DNA of 64,000 nt from Rhodopirellula sp. (GTDB lineage: Bacteria; Planctomycetota; Planctomycetia; Pirellulales; Pirellulaceae): NCBI GenBank assembly GCA_002689655.1, contig NZHC01000076.1:1-64000 (forward strand), read 5' to 3'. The notes beneath the pieces were generated by a model that saw only the letters and a list, made by a program, of their open reading frames with translations, did no database searches and was not told the origin of the DNA. Positions 5,688-59,373 of this stretch are shown piece after piece. A program made the translations under genes and the position numbers. Positions within the stretch are counted from its first letter, which is position 1. Every line of letters begins with the position of its first letter.

Positions 5688-6872
5688 ATGAAAAAAACCA
5701 CTCGCATTTTGCTCCTTCTCTTGGCATTCACCTGTGCTTCATCGCTGACTCTGTCGACAACCAGTTTGGCTGCGGACAAGACAGTCGACTATCCAAAAAC
5801 GATTGACCTGAGCGACGAGAGCCACCGGCAAGTGGTTGTGGATCGGGAACCAGGCCAATATTTGGGCCACCCGACCACATGCCTGCTGGAAGATGGCAAG
5901 ACCATGCTGTGTGTTTATCCAAAAGGGCATGGTCGGGGCGCCATCATCTACAAACGGAGTGATGACGGCGGCTTGACCTGGAGTGATCGACTACCAACTC
6001 CAGCGAGTTGGTCAAGCTCACAGGAAGTGCCAACCTTGCATCGCGTGGTGGATTCCAATGGAAAAAAACGCATCATCATGTGGTCAGGTCTATACCCCGC
6101 ACGTCTGGCAATGACCGAAGACGACGGCGTCAACTGGAGTGAACTGGAACCAGTTGGCAATTGGGGTGGCATTGTGGTGATGGGATTTGTCGAGCCATTG
6201 AAAACTGGCAAGGGTCATTACATGGCAATGTTCCATGACGATGGCAGATTCTTCTCAAAAAACGCAAAGCGGACAGGAACTTTCACACTTTTCAAAACAC
6301 TTTCCATGGATGGCGGCCTGACATGGTCGAAACCGCAAGCGGTCTACGAATCTTCAGAAATCCATCTTTGTGAACCCGGGTGCATTCGGTCTCCAGACGG
6401 CAGTAAGTTAGCTGTCCTTCTGCGAGAGAATTCACGACGCAAGAACTCGCACGTGATCTTTTCCGAGGATGAGGGTAAGACATGGACGGCACCCCGCGAG
6501 TTACCGCTTTCACTAACGGGTGACCGTCATACTGGAAAGTACTCAGCGGACGGAAGATTGCTGATCAGCTTTCGCTGCAACTCGCCAACGGCCAGTCGCA
6601 AAGGACGCCCATTTGAAGGTGACTGGGTCGCCTGGGTGGGTACTTGGGACGACATTGTCGATGGCCATCACGGCCAGTACTCGGTTCGATTCAAAGATAA
6701 CACAAAAGGCTACGACACCACCTATCCGGGTGTTGAGGTTCTGCCGGACGATACGTTTGTGGTCACCACGTATGGCCATTGGGTTCAAGACGAAGCTCCC
6801 TACATCCTCAGCGTGCGACTGAAACTCAGTGAACTGGATGAAATCGCAAGTCATTCCGATCTCGAAAAGTGA
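5688..6872 (+). CDS. secreted BNR-repeat sialidase-like (exo-alpha-sialidase family) protein
   Basis: This is an exported six-bladed beta-propeller protein of 394 aa from the ATG at 5688, chosen because it opens directly into a signal peptide ('MKKTTRILLLLLAFTCAS...', ending SLAAD); the longer frame from 5601 lacks one. Four Asp-box (SxDxGxTW) turns are visible: 'SDDGGLTW' (about 91), 'TEDDGVNW' (about 143), 'SMDGGLTW' (about 206) and 'SEDEGKTW' (about 258), spaced as in BNR propellers. A 'GRGAIIYKRS' segment before the first box may supply an arginine of the carboxylate-binding site. Proteins of this type are often called exo-alpha-sialidases, but planctomycete members may act on other sugars. 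It lies upstream of the sulfatase cluster, which has its own promoter at about 6950. Confidence 0.8.
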   Translation: MKKTTRILLLLLAFTCASSLTLSTTSLAADKTVDYPKTIDLSDESHRQVVVDREPGQYLGHPTTCLLEDGKTMLCVYPKGHGRGAIIYKRSDDGGLTWSDRLPTPASWSSSQEVPTLHRVVDSNGKKRIIMWSGLYPARLAMTEDDGVNWSELEPVGNWGGIVVMGFVEPLKTGKGHYMAMFHDDGRFFSKNAKRTGTFTLFKTLSMDGGLTWSKPQAVYESSEIHLCEPGCIRSPDGSKLAVLLRENSRRKNSHVIFSEDEGKTWTAPRELPLSLTGDRHTGKYSADGRLLISFRCNSPTASRKGRPFEGDWVAWVGTWDDIVDGHHGQYSVRFKDNTKGYDTTYPGVEVLPDDTFVVTTYGHWVQDEAPYILSVRLKLSELDEIASHSDLEK

Positions 6873-6948
6873 CTGCGGCATGCATTCATGCGTGATTCCA
6901 TTGCGTCACCACCGGGGAATGCGATTTCTACGCTGCATTAAAACCTGC

Positions 6949-6957
6949 TGGTATAAT
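6949..6957 (+). promoter_or_regulatory. extended -10 promoter for the sulfatase cluster
   Basis: The sequence TGGTATAAT is a perfect extended -10 element (TGn followed by consensus TATAAT). It sits 41 bases before the sulfatase ATG at 6999, implying a short leader. No good -35 is visible, as is usual for extended -10 promoters. It could drive the whole plus-strand run to 10873 or beyond. Inferred by pattern only. Confidence 0.55.
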
Positions 6958-6998
6958 GCAAACCTCAGACGCTCAAAACAACAGAAGAAACTTGGACC

Positions 6999-8549
6999 AT
7001 GATGACTAGAATAATTGTTTGTATCCTCTGTCTTGCCAGTCTTTCGCTTCATGCTGCAGAGACTAAAAAAGCACCCAATGTCATCTTTGTCATGGCAGAT
7101 GACTTGGGGATCGGGGATCTGCAACCCACCAATCCTGACTGCAAAATCAAGACGCCTCATTTGCTGAAGATGGCTCAGGAGGGCATTACGTTTCTCGATG
7201 CACATTCGCCCAGTTCCGTGTGCACTCCGACCCGATACGGGGTACTAACCGGAAGGTACAACTGGCGATCCCGACTAGCGAGGGGAGTACTCAGCGGCAC
7301 AAGTGAGCACCTGATCCCGGCGGACCGCGCCACCGTTGCACATCTGATGCGTGCAGCGGGTTACCACACTCAGATGATTGGAAAATGGCACTTGGGTTGG
7401 GATTGGACCAAAATCCCCGCTGCCAATGGCAAAGGCAAGAAGATCGACTTTACGCAGCCTGTCAAAAATGGACCCGACATCAATGGGTTTGATGGTTACT
7501 ACGGACACTGCGGATCTCTCGACATGCCACCCTATGTGTGGGTAGACACGGGAAAGATCACAGCGGTTCCAGAACGCGAGGAAGGAGTCACCAGTCAAGA
7601 AGACGCCTATGGTTGGTATCGAAAAGGACCAATCGGACCGGATTTCAACATCGACGAAGTCTTACCCCACCTCTTTCAAAAAAGCCTTGACCATATCAAG
7701 ACTCGTGCCGCAGACGAGAAGCCTTTCTTTTTGTATTTACCGCTGCCAGCACCACACACACCCATTGTTCCTGTTCCACCTTTCAAAGATGCAAGTGGAA
7801 TCAATCCCTATGCGGATTTTGTGATGCAAGTGGACCACCACATGGGTCAGTTGCTCAAGACATTGAAAGATGCAGGAATCGATGATAACACGATGGTATT
7901 TTTCACAAGCGACAATGGTTGTTCACCTCAGGGAAATTTCAAAGTTCTGGCAGAATATGACCACGACCCGAGTGCCGGTTATCGTGGACACAAAGCCGAT
8001 ATCTACGAAGGGGGGCATCGAGTTCCCTTCATTGTGCGTTGGCCAGCGGGTATCAATGCTGGACAAAAAACGAATACACTTGCCTGCCTGACAGATCTGT
8101 ATTCCACCATGCGAGAGCTGACAAGTCAGGCAGCCAACGACAATGGCGGTGAAGACTCCTTCAGTCTCATGCCAGCTTTCAAGGGCCAGCCCACCGGTCG
8201 TGAAAGTCTGATTAGCCACTCCATCGGTGGTTCGTTCTCAATTCGCGAGGGTGATTGGAAACTATGCCTTGCTGCCGGCAGTGGTGGCTGGAGCACTCCA
8301 CGCGAACCAGAGGCCAAAAAACGGGGTTTACCGCCCATGCAATTATTCAATCTGAAAGCTGACCGAGGCGAACAGACAAACCTGTTGCAGAAAGAACCAG
8401 AGCGAGTTTCATCACTGCTCAACTTGTTGAGTGAACAGGTCGTTCAGGGTCGCTGCACCCCTGGCAAGCAAGTATCCAATGACCGTCAAGTTTCATTTTT
8501 GCCCAAGGGTGTTTCGCTACCCGGACCACACGGTAAACCTGAAAAGTAA
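6999..8549 (+). CDS. secreted arylsulfatase (type I, formylglycine-dependent)
   Basis: This 516-aa exported sulfatase hydrolyses sulfate esters of carbohydrates. It has a signal peptide (1-20, ending LHAAE), metal-binding 'VMADDLG' (Asp34-Asp35), the formylglycine motif 'VCTPTRYGVLTGR' with Cys75 as the residue to be oxidised, 'MIGKWHLGW', the 'FFTSDNGCSPQG' metal site and the C-terminal 'LFNLKADRGEQTNLL' block. Length and order are complete for the family. Cys-Thr-Pro-Thr-Arg is an accepted variant of CxPxR. It begins 41 bases after an extended -10 promoter, and the next likely ATG lies 44 bases after its stop. A formylglycine-generating enzyme must be encoded elsewhere. Substrate cannot be read from the sequence. 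Confidence 0.95.
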   Translation: MMTRIIVCILCLASLSLHAAETKKAPNVIFVMADDLGIGDLQPTNPDCKIKTPHLLKMAQEGITFLDAHSPSSVCTPTRYGVLTGRYNWRSRLARGVLSGTSEHLIPADRATVAHLMRAAGYHTQMIGKWHLGWDWTKIPAANGKGKKIDFTQPVKNGPDINGFDGYYGHCGSLDMPPYVWVDTGKITAVPEREEGVTSQEDAYGWYRKGPIGPDFNIDEVLPHLFQKSLDHIKTRAADEKPFFLYLPLPAPHTPIVPVPPFKDASGINPYADFVMQVDHHMGQLLKTLKDAGIDDNTMVFFTSDNGCSPQGNFKVLAEYDHDPSAGYRGHKADIYEGGHRVPFIVRWPAGINAGQKTNTLACLTDLYSTMRELTSQAANDNGGEDSFSLMPAFKGQPTGRESLISHSIGGSFSIREGDWKLCLAAGSGGWSTPREPEAKKRGLPPMQLFNLKADRGEQTNLLQKEPERVSSLLNLLSEQVVQGRCTPGKQVSNDRQVSFLPKGVSLPGPHGKPEK

Positions 8550-48494: not shown

Positions 48495-48652
48495 TTGTGC
48501 TGAACTAACCACCCCACCCGCGCGTTCAACATAGTAGACATTTCCCGTCTAATCCAATTTCGTCTGAAAAAGGTGTTGCTTTTCCTTGCAACATTATGCT
48601 GTGACCTAACCTTTCTAAGGAATCCAATCCTTAATCATCTCGAGTGCCCGGA

Positions 48653-51631
48653 ATGAAATACCACTACAAACTCATTGCTCTCGCTCTCGCTCTCGCGCCC
48701 TTGGCGAATGCAGAGGCAGTTCTTGCCCCTTTTGACAAAGTGTCGGAGGGGTACACCAAGCTAGCCGTCAATGACCAGAAAAACCCCAGGGGTCTCTTTT
48801 CCCTTTGGAAAAACGACAAGGATGCCCAGTTACTGGGCGAATTGCCCAAAAACTTCATGGGGAAAAACTATTTCATTGCTTTGACTGTCAGTAGTGGTGA
48901 CAAATACGCTGGTCTGCAGTCGGGTGACTGGGTTGTTCAATGGCGTCGCTACGGGGATCGCTTGGCCCTGATTGCACCCAATTTGGACATCAGAGCCACA
49001 GGCGATGCTGAGAGCAAAGCATCCGTGAAGCGTTTGTTCACCGATCGCGTATTGCTGGATGTACCAATCCTTGCGTTGGGACCAACTGGTGGCCCCGTCA
49101 TCGACTTGGATTCATTGCTGATTGGTAACGCGAGCCGTTTCTTCGGATCGTCGGTTCGAATTAGCAATAGCCGTATCACGAAACTCGCCTCCGCAAAAGT
49201 ATTTCCGGGTAATGTCGAGATCGCCTTCGAGATTGTCGGTGGCAGTGGCCGCCTGCAGACGATTCACTACTCCTTCAGTGAGGTTCCCAGTGCCACAGCC
49301 GGCTACAAACCCCGGGAAGCTGATGAGCGCGTGGGTTACTTCACCACATCTTTCTCGGATTTGAGCCGCTACGAAGACGACGATACCCGCGTCCGTTACA
49401 TCAATCGCTGGAAGCTGCAGAAGCGGGACCCGAGCCTTCAACTCAGCCCTCCAAAAGAACCGATCCGCTTCTACGTAGAACACACCGCACCCGTCCGTTA
49501 TCGCCGTTGGATCAAAGCTGGTGTGGATTATTGGAACAAGGCATTCGAAAAAGTAGGTTTGATCGACGCAATCATGATCGAGTATCAGGACGCCCAAAGC
49601 GGTGTTCACATGGAAAAAGATCCTGAGGATGTTCGCTACAACTTCATTCGCTGGTTGAACAACGATGTGGGAACGGCGATTGGTCCCAGCCGCGTGCACC
49701 CATCCACCGGTGAAATCCTGGACGCCGATATCATTTTGACCGACGGCTGGATCCGGCACTTCAATTACAACTATGAAGATCTGATGCCGAAGCTGGCAAT
49801 GGAAGGCATGGCAGCGGAGACACTGGCTTGGCTTGGAAAGAACCCACGTTGGGACCCACGCGTACGCTTGGCTCCGGCAGAGAAAGCAAACTATCTTCGA
49901 AGTGAGTATCAGCGGCAGTCCCAGCTACCGATGGCGGGGTACCAATTTGCACAAGCGGACCCCGCATTGCTCGGAGACGATGAGTTCGACGGTCTCTACG
50001 GACATGTCAGCCAAAAGAATGGTCTTTGCATGGCTGCCAGCGGTCGCAACTTGGACCTCGCTTTGGCTCGAATGGATTGGGCCTTATCACTGATGGCAAC
50101 CGAAGAAGCCGAGAAGCAAAAGAAACGCAAGAAGAAGAAGCAGTCCGAGGAAGAGAAGGGCGACAAGAAAGCGGACGAAGCCAAGAAGGATGACAAGGAT
50201 GCAGAGGATGACAAGGATGCAGAGGCTGACAAGGACGACGATAAGGACGCCAAAGAGGAGAAAGAAGACAGCGAAGCTGTAGCTAAAAAGCCAGCAGCAC
50301 CTGCTGGTCCAATGCTTGATGGCATGCCTGAATGGTTCGTCGGTCCCCTGCTTGCTGATCTGGTTGCTCACGAAGTGGGACACACCCTCGGCCTTCGTCA
50401 CAACTTCAAAGCCTCCGGTTTGCTGACTCTCGACGAAATCAACAGCAAGGGCGTCAAAGGCAACAAGACCTTCACCGCTTCGGTGATGGATTACACACCC
50501 ATCAATTACCGACTTGAGTCCGGTGAAGTGCAAGGTGACTACGGGATGATTGATATCGGACCGTACGATTACTGGGCGATTGAGTACGGCTACACAGCCG
50601 ACGATAAAAAGCTCACGGAAATTTTGAAGCGTTGCAACGAACCTGAACTGCAATATGCCACCGATGAAGACACAAACGGTCCTGACCCTCTGGCTCGCCG
50701 GTACGACTTCTCGAAGGATCCTCTCGACTACGCCAATGAACAGCGAAAGCTAATCAAACTTTACCGAGAACGCATTCTTGACAAGTTTGTCAAAGATGGT
50801 GATAGCTGGGCAAAAGCCCGTCGTGGTTATGAGCTGACACTCAGCTTGCAAACACGCGCGGTGAATATGATGGCGAACTGGGTTGGTGGAGCATTCATCA
50901 ACCGAGACAAAAAAGGCGATCCAGGCAATCGCCCACCTGTGGAGGTAGTTCCTGCTGCCCAGCAGCGAGCTGCTTTACAATTCGTGATCGATACCTCATT
51001 CAATGACGACGCTTATGGGCTGACACCAAAGTTGCTCGAACGAATGAGTGTCGACAAATGGTTGGACACTGGCTCACGGGGCGCAATGTCCAATGAAGCA
51101 ACTTGGCCAATCCACGATCGGATTTTGGGTGTCCAAGCATCTGCTCTGACATTGTTGATGAACCCCACCACGTTGCGAAGGGTTTACGACAACGAGTTGC
51201 GACTGCCTGTCGAAGTCGACACGCTAACGCTTCCAGAGTTGCTGTCATCGATCAATGAAACGGTTTGGAGTGAACTGGAGGCGGAATGCCCCGATGGACG
51301 CAATGATCGCGAGCCAATGATCTCATCACTGAGAAGAAATCTTCAACGTGAGCACATGCAACGGCTCGTCGACCTCATCCTCGGATCATCAGATGACACG
51401 GCCGCACACAAGCCCATCAGCAATCTTGCCAGAATGGAATTGCGAGCGCTTTCCACCAAAATCCAAGGTTCTCTTGATAAGTGTGGAAAGAAGATGGACG
51501 CTTACACCAACGCTCACCTCACAGAGACCAAGGAGCGGATTGATCGCGCTTTGGAAGCTGGCTACACCTACAACGCTGCAGCTGCGTCAGGTCCGATCAT
51601 GATGATGCTTGGAAGAGAGACAAACGAGTAG
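48653..51631 (+). CDS. secreted zinc-dependent metzincin protease (DUF5117/DUF4953-like)
   Basis: This is a 992-aa exported protease from the ATG at 48653 (the frame also opens at a GTG three codons earlier). It has a signal peptide (1-23, 'HYKLIALALALAPLANAEA'). The N-terminal domain (about 25-275) is beta-rich and matches DUF5117-type pro-regions ('VHYSFSEVP'-like 'IHYSFSEVPSATAGYKPREADERVGYF'). The catalytic domain holds HEVGHTLGLRHNFKAS (His573, Glu574, His577, His583), a full metzincin zinc site, and 'SVMDYTPINY', which supplies the Met-turn. Just before the site a highly charged Lys/Asp/Glu insert of about 65 residues (about 485-548) is unusual for the family. The C-terminal region is helical. 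Function in the family is unknown; degradation of extracellular protein is likely. A strong terminator follows. Confidence 0.9.
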   Translation: MKYHYKLIALALALAPLANAEAVLAPFDKVSEGYTKLAVNDQKNPRGLFSLWKNDKDAQLLGELPKNFMGKNYFIALTVSSGDKYAGLQSGDWVVQWRRYGDRLALIAPNLDIRATGDAESKASVKRLFTDRVLLDVPILALGPTGGPVIDLDSLLIGNASRFFGSSVRISNSRITKLASAKVFPGNVEIAFEIVGGSGRLQTIHYSFSEVPSATAGYKPREADERVGYFTTSFSDLSRYEDDDTRVRYINRWKLQKRDPSLQLSPPKEPIRFYVEHTAPVRYRRWIKAGVDYWNKAFEKVGLIDAIMIEYQDAQSGVHMEKDPEDVRYNFIRWLNNDVGTAIGPSRVHPSTGEILDADIILTDGWIRHFNYNYEDLMPKLAMEGMAAETLAWLGKNPRWDPRVRLAPAEKANYLRSEYQRQSQLPMAGYQFAQADPALLGDDEFDGLYGHVSQKNGLCMAASGRNLDLALARMDWALSLMATEEAEKQKKRKKKKQSEEEKGDKKADEAKKDDKDAEDDKDAEADKDDDKDAKEEKEDSEAVAKKPAAPAGPMLDGMPEWFVGPLLADLVAHEVGHTLGLRHNFKASGLLTLDEINSKGVKGNKTFTASVMDYTPINYRLESGEVQGDYGMIDIGPYDYWAIEYGYTADDKKLTEILKRCNEPELQYATDEDTNGPDPLARRYDFSKDPLDYANEQRKLIKLYRERILDKFVKDGDSWAKARRGYELTLSLQTRAVNMMANWVGGAFINRDKKGDPGNRPPVEVVPAAQQRAALQFVIDTSFNDDAYGLTPKLLERMSVDKWLDTGSRGAMSNEATWPIHDRILGVQASALTLLMNPTTLRRVYDNELRLPVEVDTLTLPELLSSINETVWSELEAECPDGRNDREPMISSLRRNLQREHMQRLVDLILGSSDDTAAHKPISNLARMELRALSTKIQGSLDKCGKKMDAYTNAHLTETKERIDRALEAGYTYNAAAASGPIMMMLGRETNE
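50189..50224 (+). repeat. 18-bp direct tandem repeat inside the metzincin gene
   Basis: GATGACAAGGATGCAGAG occurs twice in a row, followed by a degenerate third copy. It encodes DDKDAE repeats in the charged insert before the zinc site. Confidence 0.9.
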
Positions 51632-53541: not shown

Positions 53542-54453
53542 TTACATCCGGCTCAAAATATCGCGGACTTCGGCCCGCTGCGGCGGCATGAAATGGTTGA
53601 AGGGCTCGGCCATATGGTCACTGCAGACACCGTTAATTGAAAGAGCACACTTGGTTGCCTTGATGAATCGACTGGCATATTTACCAACACTGTAGATCTG
53701 CTGCAGTCGATTGACGCGCTGACTAAGTACTTCTACCTGCTGAGGGTTCTCCGCCATGGCTGCGTGATACAAATCGACGAATAGTTGCGGATAGATGTTT
53801 GCGCCACCGTTGACCCCGCCATCACCCCCCATGGCAATGGCTTCGGCGGTCAGATGCTCTGGTCCGATGAACATCGACCAATCTGGTCGAACCTCTTTCA
53901 AACTCAGCATCTGCTGAAAGTATTTCATATCGCCACTACTATCTTTGACACCAATAATCTTTTGGTGCTGAGCCAATGATCGTAGCGTATCAATTTCAAA
54001 CCAGACCTTTGTCAAACTGGGCATATTGTACAGCATCATCGGAAGCGGCACCTCTTCCACGATATCGGCGATGTACTGAATCAACTCTGTCTGGCCTGCC
54101 GGAAAATAATAGGGCGTCGAAAGAACAACCGCATCTGCTCCCGACTCTTTGGCAACCTCGGCTAGCTTCAGCGACTCAACAAGTGAGGTATCAGTGACAC
54201 CTACGAACACGGGCACCCGCTGAGCCACCGTCTCGCTAACTAGCTTTATGAACTCACGGCGCAACCGATAGCTGAGGCTCGGAGCCTCGCCAGTGGTTCC
54301 CAGAATGAACACTCCATGGACGCCTCCTTTGATGACATGTTCAAGCAATCTTTGCGTCCCGACGTGATCGATCTTGTCACGATCCGCCAACGGTGTGACC
54401 AGCGGAGGTACGATTCCGCGGTACAGCGGTTTGGCTGTTTGAAGAGTGGCCAT
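53542..54453 (-). CDS. DapA-like (dihydrodipicolinate synthase family) aldolase
   Basis: This is a 303-aa TIM-barrel lyase of the DHDPS/N-acetylneuraminate lyase family. The ATG at 54453 lies 8 bases after the stop of the upstream ATP-grasp gene; the alternative TTG at 54477 would overlap it. 'YRGIVPPLVTPL', 'GVFILGTTGEAPSLSYRLR' (the GTTGE substrate-binding loop), 'VVLSTPYYFPAGQTELIQYIADIV', 'LYNMPS' with the catalytic Tyr and 'IIGVKDSSGDM' with the Schiff-base Lys are all present. Members condense or cleave pyruvate-containing compounds. The family is broad, so lysine synthesis is only one option; its place in a peptide-ligase operon hints at making or breaking an unusual amino acid. Confidence 0.92.
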   Translation of the reverse strand: MATLQTAKPLYRGIVPPLVTPLADRDKIDHVGTQRLLEHVIKGGVHGVFILGTTGEAPSLSYRLRREFIKLVSETVAQRVPVFVGVTDTSLVESLKLAEVAKESGADAVVLSTPYYFPAGQTELIQYIADIVEEVPLPMMLYNMPSLTKVWFEIDTLRSLAQHQKIIGVKDSSGDMKYFQQMLSLKEVRPDWSMFIGPEHLTAEAIAMGGDGGVNGGANIYPQLFVDLYHAAMAENPQQVEVLSQRVNRLQQIYSVGKYASRFIKATKCALSINGVCSDHMAEPFNHFMPPQRAEVRDILSRM

Positions 54454-54461
54454 GCTTTTTT

Positions 54462-55490
54462 TCAAACCGTCATCCAAGCAGCTTTATAGTTCAGACCAAG
54501 GTTGAGAATTCGCTGTAGAAGTGCCTCGTAGCTAATCCCAACCGACTCAGCTGATTCCGCGAGATCTTCACCGAACTCAATATTGGGATTTGCATTTGCT
54601 TCAATGACATAGATCTCTCCCTTTTCTGTCATCCGCAAATCCATCCGTCCGTAGCCACTCATACTGAGTGCTCGGTAAACCCTTTTGCAGAGCTTTGAGA
54701 TGCGATCTTGTGTCGCTTCATCGAGATCCTTTGCAGCATGCGTCGTGATCTGGTGCTTCTCCTGATACTTGCGATCCCACTTGACTCGACTGGTAGCAAT
54801 GCGAGCAAGATCATCAGGCATACTACCAAAACTCATCTCCCAAGCAGGAAACGTCCGCAGTCGAGTATTACCCAACACACCCACGTACAGTTCCCGTCCT
54901 TCGATGTACTGCTCTGCTATCGCATCATCATTCGTTTTCTCATGAATGAACTTGACCCTCTCCGCCAAAGCTTCATCGGTGTGCACGATTGACGCTTGTG
55001 CGATCCCATAGGACGCGTCCTCGACAGTCGATTTCACAAACAGGGGAAACGACAATTTTTTCGGCCGATGAACCGTCCGCCCAATCGGAAAAACAGTGAA
55101 CCGTGGCGTGGGGATTCGATGGTAAGTCAGAACCTTCTTGGACAAAGCCTTATCTTTGGTCAAGAGTAAACCACGTGGATTACAGCCCGTGTAAGGCTGT
55201 TGCATGAGTTCCAGGTAACTGATCACTGCAAAGTCGTAAGTCACTACCCCGTGAAATTCCTCGAGCATCATAAATGTGATATTCGGTTGAAAATCTCGCA
55301 ACGCCTCCCGGATCGGTGCCAGATCATCATAGACTCCCAAAGGCAAAACTTGGTGCCCCAAGCGGCGCAGCGTCTCACAAACATCAAACTCTGCTTTCCA
55401 TGGGTCCATCTCGGCTTCTGAAACGCCATCAAGACTTTGAGGCGGCACATGGCCATCACGTACCAGCACCAGAACACGCAATTTGCTCAT
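54462..55490 (-). CDS. D-alanine-D-alanine ligase-like ATP-grasp enzyme
   Basis: This is a 342-aa ATP-grasp ligase from the ATG at 55490 (frame open to 55580 without family features). The N-terminal domain ('LRVLVLVRDGHVPP', 'EFDVCETLRRLGHQVLPLGVYDD', 'FMMLEEFHGVVTYDFAVISYLELMQQPYTGCNPRGLLLTKDK') follows Ddl topology. The ATP-grasp core has 'FPLFVKSTVEDASYGIAQASIV', 'AEQYIEGRELYVGVLGN' and 'GYGRMDLRMTEKGEIYVIEANANPNI' with the metal-binding Glu and Asn. True Ddl has 'HG..GED' near the N-terminus; here 'LEEFHGV' suggests related but altered first-substrate recognition. It probably forms an amide or peptide bond between unknown amino acids. It sits between a zinc peptidase gene (upstream) and a DapA-like gene (8 bases downstream). 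Confidence 0.88.
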   Translation of the reverse strand: MSKLRVLVLVRDGHVPPQSLDGVSEAEMDPWKAEFDVCETLRRLGHQVLPLGVYDDLAPIREALRDFQPNITFMMLEEFHGVVTYDFAVISYLELMQQPYTGCNPRGLLLTKDKALSKKVLTYHRIPTPRFTVFPIGRTVHRPKKLSFPLFVKSTVEDASYGIAQASIVHTDEALAERVKFIHEKTNDDAIAEQYIEGRELYVGVLGNTRLRTFPAWEMSFGSMPDDLARIATSRVKWDRKYQEKHQITTHAAKDLDEATQDRISKLCKRVYRALSMSGYGRMDLRMTEKGEIYVIEANANPNIEFGEDLAESAESVGISYEALLQRILNLGLNYKAAWMTV

Positions 55491-55613
55491 CGCTTGGCTC
55501 GGGGTTGGTGAGGATTGACTCGGTTCGTTGCAGAAGCGCATGAAAAAGCCAAGTTCAGGCATGATCCTGGCGAGCAACATTCCAACTGATATTCGTGACC
55601 AGTGCGAAAGAAG

Positions 55614-56636
55614 TTAAATGGCAAAGCGGTGCCGTCCCTCATGTATGAAACTCGTCGTCCGTACGGCGACCAAAATCATCGCATCACGCTTTGCATCCTC
55701 AGCAGATGCTCCCAACCGCAATTTAAGTTCACGACATCGCTGAATCATTTCCTGCACCACCTGATCAATCGTGTACGTGTACTCACCCGTCCAACGTGCG
55801 ACGGCGCGGCGCAATTCACCACGAACGCGCACCAAAAAAGCTGCAGCGGTTGGATTTCGCCGATGTGCAGGATCGCTCGAAAACAGTTTACGCAAATCGT
55901 TATCATAGATACTTGGAAAATCGAAACCGTATCGCTCCCGTTTGCGTTCGTAATGTGAGCGAAGCGTTTTTCGAATTTTTGAAATCGGTTCCGCTCTGGC
56001 TCGTGATTTGACATGAGCGTTTTTTCCATTAATCGACTTCATCAGATCATCGACCATATTCAGCTTATTGATCGCCGGCCAATTTCGATAACGAGTCCGC
56101 CACCGTGATCCTGGACGAAGCCAAACAGCGAACGTCTCTGCAAAATCTTCCAATGGATGTGCCTGAGCGTACCACATCTCGAGGTGCTGCACGAAGTTTC
56201 GACTGGAAGGCTTAGGTCGATAACAGTCTGGGTAAGGCTGAGAAGGCTTACCAAAGGCTTTCCGGTAGCGGACACGCCGTCTAAGACGATAGGCTGTGTC
56301 AATCGCGTGACCTGCCTCGTGCCTCAAGATTTTCATGCACCAAGCTTTGGTACCTCCCTCAACTTCCAGCAACTGCTTCCGCTCAAGACGCATCAACCTT
56401 GGGTGGGCCAGATAGAAGGGGATCGCGATCCCCGGAATCCCATCGGGTGAAAACCATTCATCACTCAACCAACAATGCGGTGAAAACTTGAGTCCGCGGT
56501 GTGCCAATTCGTGGTTAAGCTGTTGGATTCGGTCTTCCAGAGGAGTTCCACGAATCGTGAGCTTCAAATCGCAGATCCGCGCATCGAGCAACTCTTCGTC
56601 ACTCATCGAATTCAAATCTGTTTTTTTCGTCGACAT
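55614..56636 (-). CDS. putative zinc-binding metallopeptidase (Peptidase_Mx-like)
   Basis: This 340-aa protein has no signal peptide. A gluzincin-like site is visible: 'LRHEAGHAIDTAYRL' (His106, Glu107, His110) and 'HPLEDFAETFAVWL' with Glu163 and Glu167 as candidate third ligand, the combination seen in putative zinc-binding metallopeptidases (PF15887-like). The first 50 residues form a helical domain. The C-terminal half is very basic ('KSRARAEPISKIRKTLRSHYERKRERYG'). It is the first gene of a compact minus-strand cluster (gap of about 120 bases to the ATP-grasp gene) and is divergent from the MnmE-like gene. I infer that it processes a peptide made or used by the ligase. Confidence 0.75.
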   Translation of the reverse strand: MSTKKTDLNSMSDEELLDARICDLKLTIRGTPLEDRIQQLNHELAHRGLKFSPHCWLSDEWFSPDGIPGIAIPFYLAHPRLMRLERKQLLEVEGGTKAWCMKILRHEAGHAIDTAYRLRRRVRYRKAFGKPSQPYPDCYRPKPSSRNFVQHLEMWYAQAHPLEDFAETFAVWLRPGSRWRTRYRNWPAINKLNMVDDLMKSINGKNAHVKSRARAEPISKIRKTLRSHYERKRERYGFDFPSIYDNDLRKLFSSDPAHRRNPTAAAFLVRVRGELRRAVARWTGEYTYTIDQVVQEMIQRCRELKLRLGASAEDAKRDAMILVAVRTTSFIHEGRHRFAI

Positions 56637-56772
56637 ATTGCGATTGAAAAACTAAAAACTTGGGAACTACAGCCGAAGCGATCGCGACAGTTTATTCAAC
56701 AAACGACCAATGTCTTTACACAAAAACCACGAACTGGACAAAAGCATCTCATCGAAGAGAGGGAATCCCGTC

Positions 56773-57978
56773 ATGGGTGCACACATGCCTATGGCCTCAT
56801 TTACAAGATTAACTGGCCCCGGACGAAGTGCCATTGCTGTGCTGATGCTTCAGGGAGATGGTGCTGAGTCAATCATTCAACGCTGTTTTAAGCCGGCAAA
56901 TCACGTCCCATTCGAAGAGGGCCAGATCCGTTACGGGCTTTGGAGCGGGACTGAACTGAAGGCCACCGGAGACTCCAAAATACCAGCTCGATCCTTTGAG
57001 CAACCTGCTGAATCCGTCGTAATCACACCCATGGCAGGCCAAACTTTTGAAATTCACTGCCACGGTGGACCTGCTGCTGTCGCTCGAATTGAGGCCGATA
57101 TGCGGGCCTGTTGTGCAACCTCTGCCTCAAAGACCAATGACTCAAAGTCGTCAAAACACTCGTGTCTGATCCGTGAAGCCGAATCAGTCTTGCTGAAATG
57201 CAATACTCCCAGAACCGCCGGAATTGCAATGGACCAAGTCCGGGGTGCCCTATTTGATTGGGCCAAAGAGTGGCAGACATCGATGAAGTCGACCAACATT
57301 CCAGAATTTCGTGCTGAGCTGGAACCCCTCCTCAGTGCGGCAGCCACCACTGTGAGATTGACTGAACCTTTTCGCGTGGTTCTTACCGGCCCACCCAATG
57401 TAGGCAAGAGCAGCCTCCTCAACGCGTTAGTTGGATTTGACCGCAGTATCACGCTCGACATGGCTGGAACCACCCGGGATGTCCTGCATGCTAACACGGT
57501 CATCGCTGGGCTACCCATCCAATTCAGTGATACTGCCGGAATCCGTGACCACGCAGCCGTAGAGACGATCGAACGAGAAGGTATACGACAAGCTCAACTC
57601 GCTGCTGGCAAGGCCGACCTGTTGCTGCTCGTTCGCCAACCACTACCCAAGGGTGGCTACAGTAAAATGGAATCGCCATCACTTGAAATACCACAAATTC
57701 GCGTATTGAACAAAATCGATCAACAACTCGGGTCTCCCCAACTGACAGATCATCTGGACGACCAATTTGATGTCGGCACAAATGCTTTGACTGGTGAAGG
57801 CTTGGCGGAATTGATGGTTACAATTGGCGCACGGCTTGGCAAGAACCTGCCTGATGCTGGTAAACCGGCACTGCTCAACGAGCGGCAATGGAAAATCATG
57901 AATCAAAGCTCACTTGCGAATTCATCAGAACAGATATCCGAGCTTCTGGGAAACTTGATTGGTCACGACGATGGATAA
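56773..57978 (+). CDS. MnmE/TrmE-like GTPase lacking the C-terminal CxGK motif
   Basis: This is a 401-aa GTPase. The ATG at 56773 has AGAGGG about 9 bases upstream; the frame from 56710 is weaker. The N-terminal region keeps MnmE-like 'GPGRSAIAVLML' and 'FEIHCHGGPAAVARIEADM', a degenerate version of the folate-binding domain. The G domain has G1 'TGPPNVGKSSLLNAL' (about 204-218), G2 'AGTTRDV', G3 'DTAGIRD' and G4 'NKID', typical of TrmE-type GTPases. The protein ends with a short helical region; the catalytic 'C[IVL]GK' C-terminus of MnmE is absent. Wobble-uridine modification is therefore doubtful. It may be a paralogue with another role, or the authentic MnmE may be elsewhere. It lies 6 bases before the asparaginase-like gene. 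Confidence 0.8.
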   Translation: MGAHMPMASFTRLTGPGRSAIAVLMLQGDGAESIIQRCFKPANHVPFEEGQIRYGLWSGTELKATGDSKIPARSFEQPAESVVITPMAGQTFEIHCHGGPAAVARIEADMRACCATSASKTNDSKSSKHSCLIREAESVLLKCNTPRTAGIAMDQVRGALFDWAKEWQTSMKSTNIPEFRAELEPLLSAAATTVRLTEPFRVVLTGPPNVGKSSLLNALVGFDRSITLDMAGTTRDVLHANTVIAGLPIQFSDTAGIRDHAAVETIEREGIRQAQLAAGKADLLLLVRQPLPKGGYSKMESPSLEIPQIRVLNKIDQQLGSPQLTDHLDDQFDVGTNALTGEGLAELMVTIGARLGKNLPDAGKPALLNERQWKIMNQSSLANSSEQISELLGNLIGHDDG

Positions 57979-57984
57979 AACAAC

Positions 57985-59373
57985 ATGATGCGAACACTTC
58001 TACTATCGACAACTTTTCTGGGATTCATTTTCATGCCGTTTCTTACAAGTTCCGGAGACGAAAAACCGAATTGGGCAATTGTGATCCATGGTGGTGCTGG
58101 CAGTGATCCACAAAAGTGGAATGATGCCAAAACCAAAATTCGAGAAGCGGGACTTCATCGTGCTTTGACAGCTGGTCGTGATGCTCTGGCAAAGGGCAGT
58201 AATGCACTGGATACCGTGGAACTGGTGATCCGTATCCTGGAAGATGATGCCGCTTTCAATGCAGGGCGAGGTGCGGTCCTTACCAAAGAAGGTAAAGTTG
58301 AATTGGATGCATCAATCATGGATGGGAAAACTCGTGCGTGCGGTGCGGTCGCAGGGGTGACGGCCACCAGAAATCCCATCAATCTGGCTCGTCTCGTGAT
58401 GACTGAAACACCGCACGTGCTGCTCGCTGGAAAAGGTGCAAATCAATTTGCTGAACAACAGGAAGTACCGCTCGTCTCACCTGATTACTTTCTAAGCAAG
58501 GCGAGATTCCCCGAAAGCAAACCGCACTTCGGAACTGTTGGATGTGCCGCCCTGGATTCGGATGGAAATCTGGCTGCGGGCACGAGTACCGGAGGTACTT
58601 CCAAAAAACTACCTGGTAGAGTCGGGGACTCGCCAATTGTTGGAGCTGGAACGTATGCGGCCAATGATACCTGCGCCGTATCTGGGACTGGCGTAGGCGA
58701 GGAGTACATCCGCAACTCAGTTGCCTATGACGTGGCCGCGCGAATGCGTTATGCCAACGAAAGTATCGAAGATGCCGTCACCGTCATCATGCAGAAAACT
58801 TTGCAAACTGGCGTGGGTGGAATCATCGCGCTTTCCAAGGATGGAAAAATCGTCATGCAACACAACACCCCCGGGATGAGTTGCGGAGCCGCTGACAGCA
58901 CAGGAAGATTTGAAACTCACTTGATACTCAAGGACGGTGGTTCTCCACTGAGCAATGAACCCACAGATGCTACAAACCCATCCAGAACGCAAACCCAAAT
59001 CACGGACTTACTTCTGCAACAAGTGAAAGACTGGAACCAAGGCGATATCGATGCGTTCATGAAGCCCTACTGGAACAGTGATCAATTGACTTTTTCATCT
59101 GGAGGAAAAGTCACACGTGGGTATGCGAAAACATTACAAGGTTATAAAGAGCGATACCCCGATGCCAAAGCAATGGGAACGTTGGACTTCGAAAAACTTG
59201 AGTTCCAAGCACTAGGCAACGATGCCATGCAGGTGCTCGGCACATGGAAACTTGCCAGGGACAGCCAACCCATGGCAGGCCGCTTTACCTTGGTACTTCG
59301 CAAATTTCCTGAGGGTTGGAAGATCATCCATGACCATACCTCAAAAACACCGGAAGACGAGGTGCAGGAGTGA
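57985..59373 (+). CDS. secreted isoaspartyl peptidase/L-asparaginase fused to a DUF4440/SnoaL-like domain
   Basis: This 462-aa Ntn hydrolase opens with a signal peptide (1-24) and then 'WAIVIHGGAGSDP'. The autoproteolytic site is 'HFGTVGCAALDSDGNLAAGTSTGG', with cleavage expected between Gly183 and Thr184; Thr184 is the nucleophile. 'GRVGDSPIVGAGTYA' and 'CAVSGTGVGEEYIR' complete the family pattern. It hydrolyses asparagine or beta-aspartyl peptides. Residues about 335-460 form an extra domain ('QVKDWNQGDIDAFMKPYW', 'LTFSSGGKVTRGYAKTLQGYKERYP', 'GWKIIHDHTS') matching the DUF4440/SnoaL-like fold, an unusual fusion. The gene begins 6 bases after the MnmE-like gene, and its TGA overlaps the GTG of the pectate lyase gene. 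Confidence 0.92.
   Translation: MMRTLLLSTTFLGFIFMPFLTSSGDEKPNWAIVIHGGAGSDPQKWNDAKTKIREAGLHRALTAGRDALAKGSNALDTVELVIRILEDDAAFNAGRGAVLTKEGKVELDASIMDGKTRACGAVAGVTATRNPINLARLVMTETPHVLLAGKGANQFAEQQEVPLVSPDYFLSKARFPESKPHFGTVGCAALDSDGNLAAGTSTGGTSKKLPGRVGDSPIVGAGTYAANDTCAVSGTGVGEEYIRNSVAYDVAARMRYANESIEDAVTVIMQKTLQTGVGGIIALSKDGKIVMQHNTPGMSCGAADSTGRFETHLILKDGGSPLSNEPTDATNPSRTQTQITDLLLQQVKDWNQGDIDAFMKPYWNSDQLTFSSGGKVTRGYAKTLQGYKERYPDAKAMGTLDFEKLEFQALGNDAMQVLGTWKLARDSQPMAGRFTLVLRKFPEGWKIIHDHTSKTPEDEVQE

Follow-up and report, generated by a model that had tools for sequence, protein, structure and literature searches.

A zinc peptidase and a Ddl-like ATP-grasp ligase form a conserved gene pair that probably modifies a peptide or protein

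We analyzed a 64,000-nucleotide stretch of DNA from Rhodopirellula sp. (GenBank assembly GCA_002689655.1, contig NZHC01000076.1, positions 1 to 64,000; hereafter the window), in which two neighboring minus-strand genes encode a predicted cytosolic zinc metallopeptidase (PEP, 55614-56636) and a ligase of the ATP-grasp superfamily that resembles D-Ala-D-Ala ligase, Ddl (GRASP, 54462-55490). A third minus-strand gene, encoding an aldolase of the DHDPS superfamily (ALD, 53542-54453), follows them. The first-pass annotation had treated the three genes as one module; PEP and GRASP do belong together, whereas ALD adjoins GRASP in one genus only, and the conserved unit is the PEP-GRASP pair, not one old three-gene module. 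The pair probably modifies a peptide or protein. We propose, with confidence that is about evenly balanced, that PEP and GRASP constitute a stand-alone, translationally coupled, cytosolic two-enzyme unit working on one peptide or protein, for which ALD would not be needed.

The peptidase-ligase gene pair

Genomes in GTDB were searched with an alignment of PEP, and the best 80 of at least 579 relatives were kept; these loci are the ones most similar to PEP, and the pairing rate derived from them is valid for the close family. In 77 of the 80, PEP is followed directly by GRASP. Among 70 pairs called with simple open reading frame (ORF) starts, 46 overlap by exactly 4 bases, and 14 further pairs give values of -124 or -181, as would be expected if the ligase start had been called too far upstream. 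A second sample of 294 genomes spread over the phylum, searched for GRASP at E <= 1e-40 and for PEP at E <= 1e-10, contains GRASP in 65 genomes and PEP in 66, with both present in 60, GRASP alone in five and PEP alone in six (Fisher p 2.8e-49). When the three families were sought in conserved order across planctomycetes, it was the pair that was kept, and not ALD outside the genus. PEP is directly upstream on the same strand for 48 of the 54 GRASP matches at E <= 1e-74. Three of the six exceptions (G003, G081, G131) carry a PEP homolog on another contig, one (G196) has 902 bases of contig upstream of GRASP and no PEP match, and two (G266, G063) contain GRASP and no PEP match.

By record title, the 80 loci, most of them from metagenome-assembled genomes, belong to Planctomycetota (47), Nitrospirota (17), Acidobacteriota (9), Pseudomonadota (2), and Myxococcota, Methylomirabilota and Nitrospinota (one each), with two lacking a phylum. 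Mean identity between phyla is 54% for GRASP and 57% for PEP, compared with 60% within phyla for each (55 rows). PEP and GRASP distances over the same 55 rows are correlated (Mantel r 0.78, 0/2000 permutations as high; r 0.52 for between-phylum pairs only), a correlation that stands without control by unrelated genes. Because identity between phyla is little below that within phyla and the two sets of distances agree, the pattern would fit joint horizontal transfer of PEP and GRASP. No PEP match was found among 72,556 plasmid records.

In all-against-all ORF clustering, the most widespread family apart from PEP and GRASP reached 7 of 61 stretches (that of the window and 60 fetched), and in the 80 loci none exceeded 11; a third partner gene was rejected on these grounds. 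The largest extra family among the 61 stretches, F3, occurs in seven and has no annotation, and the ALD family in that clustering derives from stretches that were fetched for ALD. The larger extra families of the 80 loci are mostly from Nitrospirota, the annotated ones being a PP-loop protein, a low-molecular-weight phosphatase-like protein and an outer-membrane-like protein; a few, for example F8 and F13, are found in 5 to 7 loci that come from two phyla.

Two links to known systems were also considered. PADLOC models for anti-phage defense gave no match to PEP, GRASP or ALD at E <= 0.01. Pup and UBact conjugation occurs in an overlapping set of phyla, and Pup_ligase is present in 32 of the 294 phylum genomes; the 65 genomes with GRASP include 13 of them, a weak excess (Fisher p 0.012), and the 54 with a GRASP match at E <= 1e-74 include 6 (p 1.0). 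The excess is confined to distant homologs, and a Pup/UBact link was rejected for the close family. The window genome itself holds a gene of the Pup_ligase family (G000:C156:21551-23143, 236.9 bits).

Several observations weigh against a tightly coupled unit, in addition to the missing control on the distance correlation. When weak matches are counted, PEP is upstream in only 53 of the 71 GRASP rows of the phylum sample, and divergent relatives stand alone or apart, including the six genomes with PEP only and the five with GRASP only. In three of the 80 loci GRASP was not seen after PEP. One of them, L165, ends too soon to be judged, after 82 bases of contig; L139 has no ligase start in the remaining 385 contig bases and is probably a true miss; and in L162, an acidobacterial locus, PEP (5959-7005) has no GRASP over 6 kb and is followed by a gene for a peptidase of family M28. 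The gene neighborhood, moreover, gives no hint of what PEP and GRASP do. Divergent PEP and GRASP homologs lie close together in several genomes, in the same order in L085 and L086, with intervening genes in L084 and in other orientations in L088 and L104. The association thus loosens with sequence distance, since divergent homologs vary in order and orientation or stand alone.

Within the window, ORFs on the minus strand at 53542-54477, 54462-55580 and 55614-56636, together with Pfam matches that all exceed the gathering score (ALD, DHDPS, 5.4e-58; GRASP, Dala_Dala_lig_C, 1.1e-26; PEP, Peptidase_Mx, 3.9e-8), confirm the three genes at the positions given at first pass. The GRASP frame is open from 55580, and ATG 55490 is its likely start because most relatives begin at residue 31 of the ORF, which corresponds to this codon. 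The gap between PEP and GRASP is 33 bases by ORF and 123 bases to ATG 55490, and the two genes do not overlap in the window. The 8-base spacing of the last two genes, also claimed earlier, was measured from the GRASP stop (54462-54464) to ATG 54453 of ALD, the codon from which the aldolases of three related genomes (G303, G301, G295) align. Selective constraint at the codon level is evident in all three genes, with ratios of non-synonymous to synonymous differences (pN/pS) of 0.16-0.27 for PEP and 0.08-0.19 for GRASP (each against four relatives) and 0.24-0.27 for ALD (against three), in comparisons where synonymous sites are close to saturation. Among the matches listed, the closest PEP records, 69-81% identical, are from Rhodopirellula, Rubripirellula, Neorhodopirellula and Stieleria, which places the window in this group.

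Predicted activities and proposed function

PEP carries an HExxH motif at residues 106-110 and a further glutamate, E167; H106, E107, H110 and E167 are invariant in 35/35 diverse rows and in 59/59 closer rows. This pattern of HExxH with a downstream Glu ligand identifies PEP as a predicted cytosolic zincin of the gluzincin type, in agreement with its earlier description as gluzincin-like. No hydrophobic N-terminal stretch was seen in PEP or GRASP when the sequences were judged by eye, without a signal-peptide program, which for PEP accords with the earlier statement that the peptidase has no signal peptide. The score of PEP against Peptidase_Mx (PF15887) is 33.4 bits, above the gathering value of 27, and the family matches 59/59 PEP homologs at E <= 0.01. 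The match spans about 70 of the 340 residues of the window protein and leaves out a helical C-terminal part (about residues 206-340). The structure model of PEP has a mean predicted local distance difference test score (pLDDT) of 84.6 and a predicted template modeling score of 0.74. Foldseek found no match to it at E <= 0.001, the best being at E 0.13. Residues 24-205, approximately, align with the catalytic domain of lethal factor (Z 9.6, root-mean-square deviation 3.1, 135 residues, about 15% identity); PPEP-3 (Z 7.7) and 4l7a (Z 6.1) also align, all within residues 1-208. With Z scores in this middling range, we suggest only that the PEP model shares an overall arrangement with the lethal factor and PPEP peptidases.

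The structure model of GRASP (pLDDT 91.9) has Ddl structures as its top matches in the PDB (8evx, 3r5x, 1iow). We aligned 58 GRASP sequences with 11 Ddl of carrier genomes for a residue comparison; L267 was left out of it, and three rows extracted on the wrong strand (L257, L278, L219) were dropped, with L157 removed from alignments and L261 and L264 from the ligase tree. Columns K114, K153, E200, R282, D284, E297 and N299 are invariant in all 58 GRASP and identical in all 11 Ddl, and we take them to be the ATP- and Mg-binding and catalytic residues known from Ddl. With these residues intact, GRASP is placed in the ATP-grasp superfamily by its sequence. The residues that hold D-alanine are presumably those equivalent to E15, S150, Y216, S281 and L282 of Escherichia coli DdlB, and most of them are replaced in the aligned GRASP sequences: the S281 column is E in 97% and D in 3%, the L282 column (L or M in Ddl) is D in 100%, the S150 column is A in 79% and S in 3%, the E15 column is variable (E in 17%), and the Y216 column is Y in 40%. 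The G276 column of Ddl is mostly N or Q in GRASP, while the D of GEDG (91%) and the K before Y216 (79%) are retained. The substrate loop had been said at first pass to differ from that of true Ddl, and this comparison of the pocket bears the statement out.

Because the carboxylate anchor of Ddl is replaced by two acidic residues, the acceptor of GRASP is unlikely to be a free alpha-amino acid, and a free D-amino acid would be improbable; we favor an acceptor that is blocked or cationic, for example a peptide or protein. The acceptor pocket would lie around E308 and D309 (numbered from ATG 55490). ATP-grasp enzymes of this kind form an acyl phosphate, which is then attacked by an amine. By analogy, GRASP would spend ATP on turning a carboxylate into an activated acyl phosphate and would then couple it to an amine through an amide bond. 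PEP would work on the substrate of GRASP, a peptide or protein, and would either trim it ready for ligation or take off again what the ligase had attached. The fixed gene order, the overlap seen in many pairs and the absence of further partners favor joint production of the two enzymes and one common cellular substrate. The two proteins may also bind each other.

Two further readings of the pair can be considered. One, a rival to the above, is biosynthetic: a cellular protein would be cut by PEP to give a peptide, and GRASP would ligate or cap this peptide, yielding a small peptide metabolite. The position of PEP as the first gene is consistent with this, as is the precedent of peptidase-linked ATP-grasp ligases that have no nearby precursor, described for graspetide branches 7 and 8 in PMC8939145; yet genes for a transporter, a tailoring enzyme or a precursor do not recur widely beside PEP-GRASP, and we regard the biosynthetic reading as possible though improbable. 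A precursor peptide beside the pair was sought among stop-to-stop frames of at least 20 residues in the 500 bases upstream and 600 bases downstream of 54 loci. Nine cross-phylum small-ORF matches were obtained, with one near-twin locus pair set apart, and the four match sequences inspected proved to be starts of PEP, which makes a precursor in these flanks improbable, a remote one lying outside the scope of the search. The other reading, which we also consider improbable, is that of a writer and an eraser, in which GRASP would add an amino acid or short peptide to one end or a side chain of a widely conserved cellular protein and PEP would remove it. If true, this would amount to a horizontally spread, reversible two-gene peptide tag, independent of ubiquitin-like proteins and of Pup.

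The occurrence of PEP-GRASP in seven named phyla without a widely fixed partner points to an unrecognized modification of peptides or proteins, in carriers that are important for nitrogen and carbon cycling. As it involves two small genes, the hypothesis is directly testable.

The aldolase and other neighboring genes

ALD scores 182.7 bits against the DapA model TIGR00674, below the cut-off of 206.15, whereas another gene of the window genome (C16) scores 330.7 bits and separates from ALD in a tree with very long deep branches. The first-pass view is right in that ALD is not the best-scoring DapA of the genome, and the best reading is that it is not the lysine-pathway DapA. The arginine motif of DapA is missing from ALD and also from high-scoring planctomycete DapA, and it is for this reason of no use as a test of specificity. 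The best relative of ALD in the PDB by sequence is 4xky.

Genus genomes were counted for GRASP and ALD only, PEP not being searched there. GRASP is present in 20 of 22; G304 has the aldolase only, and G307 has neither. ALD lies directly downstream of GRASP and in the same direction in 14 of the 20, contig ends leave the adjacency unjudged in two (G295, G297), and GRASP has no adjacent ALD in four (G294, G296, G311, G314). ALD is adjacent to GRASP in 0 of 15 GRASP-bearing genomes of the family or order outside the genus (the GRASP match of G317 being partial), and the aldolase is found in 3 of the 80 wide-scan loci. All three genes are present in L111, L112 and L114. Since adjacency is seen in 14 of 20 genomes within the genus and in none of the 15 outside it, ALD is a recent local addition that joined the operon within one genus; that it is dispensable for the core function of the pair is the best explanation.

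A single pathway could still operate within the genus, in which the aldolase would make or split an unusual acid that GRASP then ligates. The 14 co-directional neighbors are in keeping with this, as is the fact that the seven adjacent aldolases placed in the tree form one clade (100/100) together with the unjudged copy from G295. The four genus genomes that retain GRASP without ALD beside it, the lack of adjacency outside the genus, and a homolog in L106 that sits with an FGGY sugar kinase, a GntR regulator and an SSF symporter (as does that of L108, by clustering) argue otherwise, and we consider a three-gene pathway distinctly unlikely.

Other genes of the window deserve mention. Divergently oriented beside PEP is a gene for a TrmE-like GTPase of 422 residues (56710-57978; MnmE 154.7 bits, cut-off 380), and in 8 of the 80 loci, all of Rhodopirellula type, one gene family occupies this position, its annotated member being TrmE-like. 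At 57985-59373 lies a gene for an Asparaginase_2 protein that ends in a SnoaL/DUF4440-like domain, a fusion that looks unusual. At 48644-51631 a 995-residue protein contains the zinc-peptidase-like motif HEVGHTLGLRHN, preceded by a long insert rich in Lys, Glu and Asp.

The cell wall and known systems

A cell-wall-modifying role, which had been suggested at first pass, is poorly supported for the pair: neither MurF (E <= 1e-10) nor a Ddl-like gene other than GRASP (E <= 1e-15) was matched in the window genome, and 11 of the 16 other GRASP-bearing genomes searched possess a canonical Ddl over the cut-off. GRASP scores 107.7 bits against the Ddl model TIGR01205, whose curated cut-off is 245.65. 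In a tree of 46 proteins, ten Ddl fall on one branch (97/96, starred) and 16 GRASP on another (94/83, not starred), and GRASP does not cluster with housekeeping Ddl. Its separation in the tree, its score and its coexistence with canonical Ddl agree with the first-pass view of the ligase, and the best reading is that GRASP is not a cell-wall Ddl.

It nevertheless has to be considered that these planctomycetes, in which no canonical Ddl is found, use GRASP as their actual D-Ala-D-Ala ligase and that PEP is a bystander. GRASP is the only TIGR01205 match in the window genome at E <= 1e-15, and none of 20 relatives scores above the cut-off. Three Pirellulaceae-type carriers of the 16 (G352-G354; TBK1r, R. 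baltica and SV_7m_r) have no Ddl near it, and the retained GEDG aspartate and the lysine before the Ddl tyrosine point the same way. Peptidoglycan is reported in Rhodopirellula baltica, and essential genes in all planctomycetes studied, in a review (PMC5147048); this must be reconciled with the missing Ddl and MurF matches in the window genome. The replaced substrate residues, the position in the tree, the 11 carriers with a canonical Ddl and two more with scores close to the cut-off (G355 and G357, 224 and 241 bits), and the lack of GRASP at E <= 1e-40 in G304, a 99% complete genome of the same genus, all speak against such a ligase. So does the search for MurF, which found none at E <= 1e-10 in the window genome, where divergent genes may escape detection. 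Mur_ligase_M is represented there by two genes only, one of which is presumably FolC-like, judging by its motif. We therefore hold it very unlikely that GRASP is the cell-wall enzyme. Since GRASP is the only Ddl-like match in the window genome, earlier counts of Ddl in such genomes may have included it; the label "D-alanine--D-alanine ligase" may be mistaken in these groups, with consequences for what is concluded about the planctomycete cell wall. A Van-type unit remodeling cell-wall precursors, as in vanHAX, would likewise have its Ddl-family ligase and its zinc peptidase encoded in a single operon, and can be set aside as highly improbable given the missing MurF match, a Pfam match of PEP to Peptidase_Mx with no VanX-type family listed, and GRASP scores of 49-83 bits against the Van and D-Ala-D-Lac/D-Ser models among the 25 shown (cut-offs 495-775; VanA, NF012217, 57.4 bits, cut-off 775).

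No paper recognizably describing the PEP-GRASP pair was found in word searches of open-access full texts, subscription papers being mostly outside them. An earlier mention is possible, and a 2009 survey of amidoligases would be the likeliest place for one. Compared with Ddl, GRASP is alike in fold, in ATP/Mg catalytic residues and in its presumed acyl-phosphate chemistry, and it differs in its score (107.7 against 245.65 bits), its replaced D-alanine residues and in that 11 of 16 other carriers possess a Ddl as well. PEP shares with Peptidase_Mx the zinc-site region common to 59/59 homologs, and differs in its unmatched helical C-terminus and in having a ligase neighbor in 77 of 80 close relatives. 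Its model aligns with gluzincins that we take to be of the M34 and PPEP types (Z 9.6 and 7.7), to which it is only about 15% identical, with a best Foldseek E of 0.13. The vanHAX operon has in common the Ddl-family ligase and zinc peptidase; PEP-GRASP differs in having no adjoining dehydrogenase and no VanX-type match, and lies far below the Van cut-offs. Links between ligases and peptidases are a known theme, and in PMC8939145 graspetide branches 7 and 8 likewise show an ATP-grasp gene tied to a peptidase with the precursor not nearby, a likeness of theme.

Tubulin tyrosine ligase and its carboxypeptidases follow a writer/eraser logic, and PEP-GRASP would follow the same logic if PEP erases the product of GRASP.

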